Assembly: GCF_013201625.1 (NCBI RefSeq)
Contig: NZ_CP053839.1
Location: forward strand, 992,001-1,056,000
Reading direction: 5' to 3'
DNA from: Aliarcobacter lanthieri
GTDB lineage: Bacteria; Campylobacterota; Campylobacteria; Campylobacterales; Arcobacteraceae
Length of the DNA: 64,000 nt
Part shown: one piece after another, positions 3,706-7,453 of the stretch
Numbering within the stretch: the stretch's first letter is position 1
How the letters are laid out: the number at the start of each line of letters is the position of its first letter
Notes under the pieces: generated by a model
What the model was told of the DNA's origin: nothing
What the model saw: the letters and a program-made list of their open reading frames with translations, nothing else
Database searches by the model: none
Translations under genes and position numbers: made by a program

Positions 3706-5700
3706 TTAAGCTATTTCTTTTATGGGTAAAGTATCATTTTCATTTGAATCAAAAGTTTTAGCACAAACATCATTTTTCCCTATAAACTCTTTTTCGTTTG
3801 CATTACTTACTACTAATTTTGCAATATTGTTTGTTTGTATAGCAATATCGTTAGTTTGACTAGCAACCATAGCATTTTGTTGTGTTTGTTGATCCAACTG
3901 ATTTACTGCATCATTAATTTGTTCTATTCCCATTAGCTGCTCTTTACTTGACATCTCTATATCTGATATTAATGTTATTGTCTCTTCTATATTCTTACTT
4001 AATCCAACATATCCATTTATCATATTTGTTGCTATTTGTTTCCCTTCATCTGCTTTTACTGTTGCTCTTTCCACTATATCTTTTATCTCTTTTGCTGCTT
4101 CTGCTGAACGAGATGCTAAATTTCGTACTTCTTGTGCTACTACAGCGAACCCTTTCCCTGACTCTCCTGCTGTTGCTGCTTCTACTGCTGCATTTAAACT
4201 TAAGATATTTGTTTGAAATGCTATATTATCTATTACTCCTATTGCTTCACTTATTGCATTAACTTGTGCATTTATCTCATCCATTGCTGTTGTTGTTTTA
4301 TTCGCCAATTCTTCTCCTTCATTTACTGACTTAGTAACATCTGTTGAAAGATTTGACATCTTTGCTATATTATGTGTTGTATTCCTTATATTACTTGTTA
4401 TCTCTTCTAAGGCTGCTGCTGTCTCTTCTAAAGATGTTGCTGCTTCATTTGAGCTTACATTTAATATATCTACATTTGATAGAAGTATTTTTGAGCTATT
4501 CTCTAAAGTTAATCCATTTGATTTATTCTCTACTAGCATTGTTGTTATTGAATCTCCTAAATGGTTCACTCCTCTTGCTAGTTTTAACAAATGCTCTTTT
4601 AACCCTTTTTGATCTATCTTATTCAAGTAGTTATAATTTGCATATTGTTCTAATATATTTAATATATTATTTATATTTGATTCAAGATTCTCTCCCATAT
4701 TATTCAACATCTGTTTTAATTGCATTAAGGCTGGATTTGTTACTTCTATATTCAACCTTTGACACAAATCCCCTTGTTCAAATTCACTTAATACTGTTAT
4801 TGTCTCATCTATCAATCTTCTATCTTCTTCTATCCCTTTTTGTGTCTTCTTGATATTCTCATTTACTACTTTTGCCATCTCTCCAAACTCATCTTTTGAA
4901 GAATCTTTTAAAAGCTCTATATTATATACTTCTCTATTTAAGTATGCAAAAAATCCTAATAATCCATATTTAAAGCTTTTGATACTGTTTAATATATTAT
5001 TTGAGATAATCATTAAAATTACACCAATAATAGTCAATATAAGTAAAGTTATAATAGTTGATTTTATTATATTAGAATAAAATTGTTCATTTATATCATC
5101 AATATAAATACCGCTACCTAATATAAAACCCCACTCTTTAAATTTTTTAACATAAGATACTTTCTCATATAAATCTTCTGATTGACTATTCTTATTCCAT
5201 AAATAAGTTACAAATCCAGAGTTTTCTTTAGTTGTAACTTCTACCATCGTTTTAAACAAATTTTGTTTTGAAGATAGTTGTATCTCATCTTTTTTATCTC
5301 CATAAATAAATTTTGTAGCTACATTATAATTATCTGAATCTAATGTAGTTTTATTTAAAGCTGGATTTATTGGATGTTGAATCATCTTTGGATATGGATT
5401 TGTATCATCTATTATAAATATATACTCTTGATGACCAGCTGAGTTATATCTAAGCTTATTTATAGCAATCAAAGCATTGCTTTTTGCAGTTTCTTCATCT
5501 AAAATTCCATTATTAAAAGCTTGGTATTCAGCTTCGACTATACTATAAGCTAATTCAACTATATTTTTTAACTTTAGTCTCTTTTCTTCCAGCATTGTTT
5601 TTTTTTCACTAAATAAAAATATAGTACTTAATAGAATAAAACCTCCACAGACTAAGTATAATATTACCAATAACTTATTTTTTATACTAATATTCCCCAT
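3706..5700 (-). CDS. methyl-accepting chemotaxis protein with single Cache sensor
   Basis: This is a 664-aa receptor. It has TM1 at about 10-30 and a periplasmic region at 35-205 with sCache_2-type features ([18 protein letters not shown], later [14 protein letters not shown]). TM2 is at about 213-235, followed by a HAMP-like linker and a signalling hairpin with its tip near 500 ([20 protein letters not shown]). sCache_2 sensors often bind small organic acids, but the ligand here is unknown. Unlike the two other MCPs in this cluster it ends in PIKEIA, with no xWxxF tether. The linker and signalling half are close to identical with the neighbouring receptor, suggesting recent duplication or gene conversion. 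Confidence 0.95.
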
Positions 5701-5848
5701 TTTTCGTTCTCTCCCTTGTAAATGTTAAGATCTTATCTTATATTATCTTTCTATAATGGAACCAATTTATTTTTTTATTATTTTTTATTTGTGAGTATTT
5801 TAGAAACGATTTTGTAATTTATAAGTTCATTTTGGTAAAATATATTTT

Positions 5849-6934
5849 ATGAAAAATATCCCTTTTTATATGATTATAAATAAATTATATGTTATGAGTT
5901 TTAATAGATATGTTAAATATCTAAAAGAGCAAATATTAAATACTAAATGGTTTGAGAAAGCTTGCAAAGATAAAAAGGTGGTTATTAAATATCTATCAAA
6001 AGATTTTTTTACAGAAATATCATCTAATATTTATTTTAAATATGAAAATTTTAAAAGTTGTTTTTATAAATTATTATTAATTAAATTTGAATATAAAGAA
6101 GAGCTAGAAGATAATAATCACTTAAAATTATTGAATATAAATATAGTAAATGAAACTAGATTTAAAGTTATTGAATTTTTACTATCTATGCAAAAAAGAT
6201 TTTTAGAAACAAATCATTGTCTATATATGAAATTAATAGATAGAAAAGAGTTTGTTGATAATTTTTTCAAAGAATATAATAGATATTTAGATATTTCTAT
6301 ATTATCAAAAATATTAAATCATACGTATTTCTTTTTTAATAAAACTGTATACAAATTGGATTATTTAGTTCCTAAAAAAAGATTTATATATTCAATTTAC
6401 ATAAAAGACATTATAAATACGAATTTAAATATTTTAAAAAATGATACACAAATATCAAAATTAATATATGAAAAGTATGATACAAAATTATCACGAAGAG
6501 TAATTTGTGATATTAGAAAAAAATATTCAATTCCAAAAATTACAAAAGTTCAAAGATTTAATCAAAAAATGTTATTTACAAACTCTTTTTCTCAGAAAAG
6601 AGTTTTAAATAAAGAAAATATTGCACAATTACCTAATGATTTACAAGGAGTTTATGAACTTTCTTCAAGTAAATTAGAGATGTATCCTTTTTTAACAAAT
6701 AAAGTTATCTATATTGGTTCTTCAAAAAATATAAAAAGAAGATTGAGAGCTTATACAGAAAAATATGCTCATACAAAAGAGATAAAAGAATTTATTAAAA
6801 GTTGTGATAATGTTTATTTTAGAGTAGTAAAGAGTAAAGATTATAGAGTTTTTGAAAAAAGATTTATTGAATATTTTATATATTTACATGGTGAACTACC
6901 AAAATTTAATACTCAAAGAGTTCTTCTAAAATAA
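5849..6934 (+). CDS. GIY-YIG nuclease with a sigma-54-like DNA-binding region
   Basis: This is a 361-aa protein. The C-terminal part (about 265-355) is a GIY-YIG nuclease fold: GVY at 267-269, YIG at 288-290, basic RRLR at 297-300, a candidate catalytic Glu in VFEKRF, and Asn in PKFN at 354. The middle part resembles the DNA-binding half of sigma-54. Residues about 103-120 (RFKVIEFLLSMQKRF) match the segment before the HTH. Residues 147-185 align without gaps to the HTH stretch. Residues 214-230 (LSRRVICDIRKKYSIPK) match the RpoN box and the following IP motif. This similarity was recognised by eye. The gene stands alone and converges on 6962-7453. Its function is unknown; a sequence-targeted nuclease is one possibility. 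Confidence 0.75.
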   Translation: MKNIPFYMIINKLYVMSFNRYVKYLKEQILNTKWFEKACKDKKVVIKYLSKDFFTEISSNIYFKYENFKSCFYKLLLIKFEYKEELEDNNHLKLLNINIVNETRFKVIEFLLSMQKRFLETNHCLYMKLIDRKEFVDNFFKEYNRYLDISILSKILNHTYFFFNKTVYKLDYLVPKKRFIYSIYIKDIINTNLNILKNDTQISKLIYEKYDTKLSRRVICDIRKKYSIPKITKVQRFNQKMLFTNSFSQKRVLNKENIAQLPNDLQGVYELSSSKLEMYPFLTNKVIYIGSSKNIKRRLRAYTEKYAHTKEIKEFIKSCDNVYFRVVKSKDYRVFEKRFIEYFIYLHGELPKFNTQRVLLK

Positions 6935-6952
6935 TAAAATATTGATATTATT

Positions 6953-6978
6953 AAGAAGTTTTTATAATATAACTTCTT
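6953..6978. terminator. bidirectional terminator-like hairpin
   Basis: AAGAAGTT (6953-6960) and AACTTCTT (6971-6978) pair around a 10-nt AT loop between two convergent genes. T-rich sequence follows on both strands. The stem has only 8 bp. Confidence 0.5.
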
Positions 6979-7453
6979 GATTTTCTGTTTGTCTTACTTT
7001 ATCTATTGAAAAACATTCATTACTTAAATTTCTAACACTAGTATCTTTATATAAAGTTACTATTTTATGAATAGTTCTTAACTCATCTTTTGAGAAAATT
7101 CCTTCATCAAAATCTTCATCTAACTTTGAAAATTTTAATTCTTTAAAATTTTCTTTTTCAACTATTTCAATATCTAAAAAGTCCATGAGTTCTTGAATAA
7201 AATATACTCTATCATCTTCCTCATCTAGAATATCTTCATTTATAATAATTTCAAAAAGTTCACTTAAAACTACAGATTTTACACCTCTTTTATCTTTAAT
7301 AAATGTTTCATTTATGATTTTCTCATTACAGAAATTTAAGTGGTTATTTTCCATAAAAAATAGCATAAGTTCTATTTTTTTATTATTTAATGTTTTGGTT
7401 TGTTTGTGTAACATATATAAAATTATATTTGCAACTTTTGTCATATCTATCAT
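6962..7453 (-). CDS. Panacea-like (SocA/DUF4065-type) hypothetical protein
   Basis: This 163-aa acidic soluble protein has no signal peptide. The start (KVANIILYMLHKQ, then LNNKKIELMLFFME) and the later segment (TIHKIVTLYKDTSVRNLS) follow the pattern of Panacea/SocA-like domains. Those proteins serve as antitoxins or protease adaptors in several bacteria. The match is weak and by eye. No partner toxin lies beside it: the upstream gene is a J-domain protein, 10 bases away and likely co-transcribed. A chaperone-linked role is possible but unproven. Confidence 0.4.
   Translation of the reverse strand: MIDMTKVANIILYMLHKQTKTLNNKKIELMLFFMENNHLNFCNEKIINETFIKDKRGVKSVVLSELFEIIINEDILDEEDDRVYFIQELMDFLDIEIVEKENFKELKFSKLDEDFDEGIFSKDELRTIHKIVTLYKDTSVRNLSNECFSIDKVRQTENQEVIL

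Follow-up and report, generated by a model that had tools for sequence, protein, structure and literature searches.

What does a nuclease do with part of a sigma factor? The gene at positions 5849 to 6934 of the window, by which we mean the whole stretch of 64,000 nucleotides from Aliarcobacter lanthieri analysed here, encodes a GIY-YIG nuclease joined to a region that resembles the DNA-binding domain of sigma-54 (RpoN). We know of no sigma-54 DNA-binding domain that works outside a sigma factor. An earlier note, made from the DNA letters of this locus, suggested that such a protein might cut at or near -24/-12 promoter elements, or might have reused an RpoN fragment to select its sites. We ask here whether the likeness is real, which sites the protein would recognize, and what it would do at those sites.

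Domains of the protein

The gene and its parts are as follows, in window coordinates.

5849..6934, plus strand: sigma-54-DBD/GIY-YIG gene (open reading frame of 361 amino acids with an ATG start; homologues, n=14)
5849..6097, plus strand: N-terminal domain, residues 1-83 (region I and the core-binding domain of RpoN absent)
6098..6541, plus strand: sigma-54 DNA-binding domain homologue, residues 84-231 (PF04552, hhalign, Foldseek, secondary structure)
6491..6520, plus strand: RpoN-box equivalent SRRVICDIRK, residues 215-224 (hhalign and alignment)
6542..6646, plus strand: linker, residues 232-266 (233-242 predicted disordered, pLDDT <50)
6647..6910, plus strand: GIY-YIG nuclease domain, residues 267-354 (PF01541, catalytic residues, UvrC fold match)

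The nuclease domain is readily recognized. The Pfam family PF01541 matches residues 268-340 of the window protein above its curated cut-off (E = 2.5e-6), as the earlier note's reading of the C-terminal motif residues had suggested, and it is found in all ten family members scanned. That note had also asked whether the catalytic residues are lost across homologues; Y269, Y288-I289-G290, R298, E336 and N354 are instead invariant in 14 homologues, with identity down to 29%. With these residues intact, the domain is predicted to cleave DNA.

The sigma-54 likeness requires more sensitive comparisons. In the window protein alone, Sigma54_DBD (PF04552) falls below the HMMER threshold of the Pfam scan; the same family matches 7 of 10 relatives, with a best E-value of 2.8e-6. 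A search of the genomes with PF04552 gives 26.9 bits for the copy in genome G029 and 27.1 bits for the G013 copy with its neighbours, both above the curated cut-off of 22.8 bits. When the family is aligned by hhalign with the RpoN proteins of Campylobacterota, residues 84-231 correspond to the whole RpoN DNA-binding domain at about 23% identity (E = 2.9e-5 at full length, 5.8e-6 for the DNA-binding domain alone). The helix-turn-helix (HTH), at about residues 149-179, aligns to RpoN without gaps, in agreement with the gapless alignment proposed earlier for residues 147-185. The RpoN box that had been suspected at residues 214-230 is likewise in place: SRRVICDIRK at 215-224, followed by IPK. This counterpart of the ARRTVAKYRE-like box reads SRRVICDIRK or SRRTVCDIRN in the members that we call g1, and is lost in four members from a genus that we call g33. 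Sigma54_AID and Sigma54_CBD have no Pfam match in ten members.

Structure prediction points the same way. AlphaFold models were built from ten sequences (pLDDT 69) and from fourteen (pLDDT 86, pTM 0.79), and in Foldseek searches with both models sigma-54 chains rank first in the PDB and the UvrC GIY-YIG domain second. A comparison of this kind with RpoN is the check that had been proposed for the locus, and an RpoN-like fold was indeed recovered over the region in doubt, residues 100-235. In the secondary structure of the model, residues 84-231 comprise a long helix (87-114), the HTH and the RpoN-box subdomain. A sequence-profile search of the PDB gave no match at an E-value of 0.01. From the sequence and profile comparisons, together with the predicted fold, we conclude that the whole sigma-54 DNA-binding domain has its homologue in residues 84-231.

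We also considered whether the N-terminal domain is a remnant of RpoN, and set this aside because residues 1-83 find no hhalign match in RpoN. The alignments of the better model to sigma-54 chains extend over more than 210 columns, so a remnant at the level of structure is conceivable.

Distribution of the family

Of 104 Arcobacteraceae genomes, 14 from three genera carry the family, which is absent from other bacterial families among 397 genomes sampled across the phylum. A single-sequence search of genome contigs found no relatives, and an alignment-based search of the contigs found A. vitoriensis only (G027, a carrier in the same genus). The window's genome (G000) has a second copy, 65% identical, at G000:C1:2026012. 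The A. cloacae member (G018; 44% identical) lies on a 189-kb plasmid, NZ_CP053834.1, where RefSeq names it 'GIY-YIG nuclease family protein'; that annotation thus covers the nuclease half only, and leaves the sigma-54 domain and the element described below unrecorded.

The distribution is patchy, with variable positions, one plasmid copy and two decayed copies. One of the latter, in G333, is frameshifted. The other is the second copy of G029, where residues 1-130 survive with six stops (L021:7034 onward; G029:C1:612033), still adjoined by a perfect element and a chemoreceptor. Gene neighbours differ in almost every genome. For most copies the divergent neighbour is a chemoreceptor gene, in head-to-head orientation; at the 3' end there is usually an unrelated gene close by, tail-to-tail. 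No phage or viral homologues were found; a viral-structure search returned one weak unnamed match (199 columns, rmsd 17), the rest being mostly GIY-YIG endonucleases.

By the PF04552 search, rpoN is missing from seven of the nine same-genus carriers, the window's genome included; only G013 and G029 have it. Loss of RpoN, FlgRS and FliA has been described in Arcobacter, where the regulation of flagellar and motility genes is unexplained (PMC2147049, PMC9321776).

A 38-bp element accompanies the gene

Next to the window gene lie the following features.

5728..5765, minus strand: 38-bp sigma-54-like element TTGGTTCCATTATAGAAAGATAATATAAGATAAGATCT, proposed binding site (motif; co-occurrence with the gene)
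3706..5700, minus strand: methyl-accepting chemotaxis protein, proposed target gene (Pfam MCPsignal and Cache; downstream of the element)
6962..7453, minus strand: SocA/Panacea-domain gene (tail-to-tail with the nuclease gene; marker of an insertion/deletion junction in relatives)

The element sits 83 bp ahead of the nuclease gene, and its 29-mer core ends 37 bp ahead of the start of the chemoreceptor gene. The SocA/Panacea gene is tail-to-tail with the nuclease gene in A. vitoriensis as well (L015). At a locus in G006 the SocA/Panacea gene is followed directly by the element, and the nuclease gene is absent.

The same element is found upstream of 10 of 12 copies of the family gene. On the strand that leads into the chemoreceptor gene, its core is TTGG-N10-GAAAGATAAGATAAGATAAGATAA, 38 bp in all, with TATAAT or ATTAAT inside it. 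Sigma-54 promoters carry GG and GC ten bases apart. The element likewise has GG with a G ten bases on, where the next base is usually A or G in place of the sigma-54 C; three sites in A. vitoriensis are exactly GG-N10-GC.

To count sites we used the relaxed pattern TTGG-N10-GAAAGATAAGATAAG with up to 3 mismatches. A control pattern matches nearly as often at 3 mismatches, and such matches are therefore mostly chance; hence we accepted sites with 0-2 mismatches, or with 3 if they had the TAAT core and complete repeats. Among the 104 genomes, at no more than 3 mismatches, the element occurs in 14 of 14 carriers versus 1 of 90 non-carriers (Fisher, 2e-16), part of the 14 being so by construction, because the motif was first noticed beside the gene in some carriers. 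We therefore define an independent set of carriers, which either played no part in motif discovery or have no site next to the gene (G001, G005 and four g33 genomes); of these, 6 of 6 have the element. Within the genus, the comparison is 9 of 9 carriers versus 0 of 22 non-carriers (Fisher, 5e-8). The lone non-carrier match has 3 mismatches and disrupted repeats, and looks like chance. Orthologues of two target genes in non-carriers have no element.

The number of copies reaches 12 in G006, 7 in the window's genome and 4 each in G005 and A. vitoriensis. All the confident sites that we examined point towards a downstream gene. At the 21 sites measured, the gap between the 29-mer and the start codon has a median of 48 bp, and falls between 31 and 56 bp at 15 of them; several of the larger gaps hold a small open reading frame. 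MCPsignal is present in 28 of 37 downstream products, counted over open reading frames of at least roughly 100 amino acids; response regulators and GGDEF, PAS and Cache proteins are among the rest. In G001 and G005 there is no site beside the gene, and sites lie ahead of chemoreceptors elsewhere.

We considered whether the element travels as part of a long copied cassette, and rejected the idea: most pairs of sites within one genome share little beyond the 38-bp core, and their flanks are unrelated. Unrelated flanks around a shared core imply that the core is held by selection rather than by the copying of blocks.

Some of the loci have features of their own. Small open reading frames of about 55-78 amino acids, with a motif like FLKDIL..LHEIR in common, lie between the element and the chemoreceptor start at L076, L079, L081, L097, L093, L098, L139 and L140; read in the receptor direction, they are probably co-transcribed with the receptor, and they possibly encode a small receptor-associated protein. 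At G006:C1:1348555-1360315 (L142, L194, L195, L208, L210) there is a tandem array of chemoreceptor/PAS-receptor units, 98-100% identical, each preceded by the 38-bp element. In G011, four chemoreceptor signalling domains (G011:C1:1106739, 1110173, 1225774 and 1260147), two of which flank the nuclease gene, are 99.4-100% identical and show signs of gene conversion among receptors.

Covariation of protein and element

If the protein reads the element, then changes in one should be accompanied by changes in the other. The RpoN box of sigma-54 reads the GG of the -24 element (PMC7057263). All ten g1 proteins have Arg-Arg in the box, and their elements have GG, the sole exception being TTGC at one of the seven sites in the window's genome. 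The four g33 proteins have STVQ or SSVQ in place of SRRxV, and so lack Arg-Arg; in their elements TT takes the place of GG, with the TAAT core and AAGAT repeats retained. Joint loss of GG and Arg-Arg, a single lineage event, is the change that would be predicted if the RpoN-derived domain reads that base step.

A proposed promoter-binding nuclease acting in trans

What, then, is the protein likely to do? With modest confidence we favour an RpoN-derived, promoter-binding nuclease whose action on chemoreceptor genes would be in trans and most probably regulatory. Its DNA-binding domain would have been taken from an RpoN-like sigma factor and would work without the regions that bind RNA polymerase. 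Its targets would be a small set of sites in trans, the 38-bp elements at the promoters of chemoreceptor and other signalling genes. Within each element, the -24-like GG is probably recognized by the RpoN box and the -12-like G(A/G/C) by the HTH; the AAGAT repeats farther on may be read by the N-terminal domain. The protein would control a variable chemoreceptor regulon, together with its own divergent promoter where gene and element are neighbours, and would probably do so as a repressor that covers the -10/start region. The nuclease would be a second, conditional activity, comparable to that of I-TevI.

Several observations recommend this reading. Every carrier genome has the element, and the protein therefore probably recognizes element-bearing promoters. 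Gene and conserved element co-occur, and the element stands at promoter position ahead of functionally coherent genes, which is a pattern like that of an operator. The sites of G001 and G005, away from the gene, imply action in trans. A shared core within unrelated flanks is as expected of a bound site. We infer binding of the element, regulation and its direction, and cleavage from the sequences.

These results separate the two proposals of the earlier note. The domain homology and the element's tracking of the gene lend good support to the idea that an RpoN fragment was reused to select sites. The suggested cleavage at or near -24/-12 promoters is only half right: the element is a derivative, in which GA or GG usually stands where sigma-54 promoters have GC, and without rpoN the window's genome and most same-genus carriers would have no true sigma-54 promoters to cut.

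Two points sit less easily with a regulator. The invariance of the catalytic residues implies that cutting is under selection, and a nuclease is superfluous for a pure repressor. Moreover the patchiness, the varied positions, the frameshift in G333 and the decay in G029 suggest a mobile gene rather more than a settled regulator.

Alternative explanations

The protein could instead be a site-specific nuclease that nicks or breaks DNA at or near the element, so that repair from other receptor genes reshuffles or duplicates the repertoire. Apart from the invariant catalytic residues, this would account for a 1,853-bp patch in A. cloacae, 99.3% identical between a receptor beside the plasmid-borne nuclease gene and a chromosomal chemoreceptor (L020:8259-10111 versus L193:6408-8260), which starts 16 bp ahead of the ATG of the former and has unrelated flanks. 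Similarly, in G006 the sequences at sites 1351576 and 1561839 are 98.5% identical over at least 1,200 bp to one side, and the match breaks off 31 bp beyond the motif. Near-identical signalling domains occur in 10 of 19 element-bearing receptors versus 6 of 46 other receptors of three carriers (Fisher, 0.0015), and receptor domains of equal score make up 25 of 125 in five carriers versus 4 of 119 in seven non-carriers; these comparisons are confounded and not independent, because duplicates bring their own promoter. However, receptors duplicate and undergo homologous exchange without any dedicated nuclease, at least half of the near-identical receptors in G000 and G011 have no element, and free cutting would come at a cost in genomes with as many as 12 intact sites. 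We therefore regard a recombination nuclease as unlikely, though it deserves to be kept in mind.

A related and rather doubtful possibility combines regulation with recombination: the sigma-54 reading domain, freed from RNA polymerase, would target a nuclease that marks chemoreceptor genes after the loss of sigma-54, and controlled cutting would both regulate and reshuffle them.

Another explanation is that the gene is a selfish, free-standing homing endonuclease, the element being its own operator and the chemoreceptor promoters chance landing spots. Selfish spread would suit the patchy occurrence with different neighbours nearly everywhere, the two copies each in G000 and G029, the decayed and plasmid-borne copies, the tail-to-tail placement of the 3' end near an unrelated gene, and the nuclease-free Panacea-element-receptor junction in G006. 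Yet the 90 non-carriers have no intact element, hence no naive target of that sequence; for this reason we reject homing into pre-existing sites as the main reading, although a target of unrelated sequence elsewhere is conceivable. Furthermore, the element beside the gene is intact and uninterrupted by insertion, many elements have no adjoining nuclease gene and are always directed at a downstream signalling gene, and the search for phage or viral homologues was empty. A selfish homing gene thus seems to us improbable.

Finally, the RpoN likeness might be chance in an AT-rich, Lys/Ile-rich protein, with the element an unrelated host promoter, as the window protein's sub-threshold Pfam score, the low identity and the empty PDB profile search would allow; this we consider highly improbable, given that independent members exceed the curated cut-off in the right position, that profile-profile and structure comparisons concur, and that the element has sigma-54 geometry and tracks the gene.

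Comparison with known systems

It is useful to set the favoured promoter-binding nuclease beside the systems that it most resembles. With RpoN the family shares the long helix, the HTH and the RpoN box over the whole length of PF04552, and the GG-N10-G spacing of the proposed target. It differs from RpoN in its diverged recognition residues, in the fused nuclease, and in occurring, within the genus, mostly in genomes without rpoN; lacking region I and the core-binding domain, it is not a sigma factor as known.

In the phage T4 intron endonuclease I-TevI, too, a linker connects the GIY-YIG domain with a separate DNA-binding domain; the protein is both nuclease and autorepressor, cutting one class of site and repressing at another (PMC2988022). 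In I-TevI, however, the nuclease is N-terminal, the DNA-binding domain is of another kind, the home is an intron, and repression is of itself only, whereas the present family has the reverse domain order and many sites in trans ahead of chemoreceptor genes. The closest solved fold of the nuclease domain is the N-terminal GIY-YIG domain of UvrC (1yd6, TM about 0.7 on the target), but the other parts of UvrC are absent, and the family protein is no repair protein.

Significance

A limited literature search turned up no publication that connects GIY-YIG proteins with sigma-54, Arcobacter or chemoreceptors in such a sense. The analysis points to a sigma-54 DNA-binding domain housed in a stand-alone nuclease, with sigma-54-shaped sites ahead of chemotaxis genes in bacteria that mostly lack sigma-54. 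A stand-alone reading module of the sigma-54 type would be useful for understanding how the residues of the RpoN box specify the -24 element, and the hypothesis of a bound site is easy to test at the bench. For Arcobacter itself, the family would provide a candidate regulator, with its sites listed, for part of the chemotaxis set.
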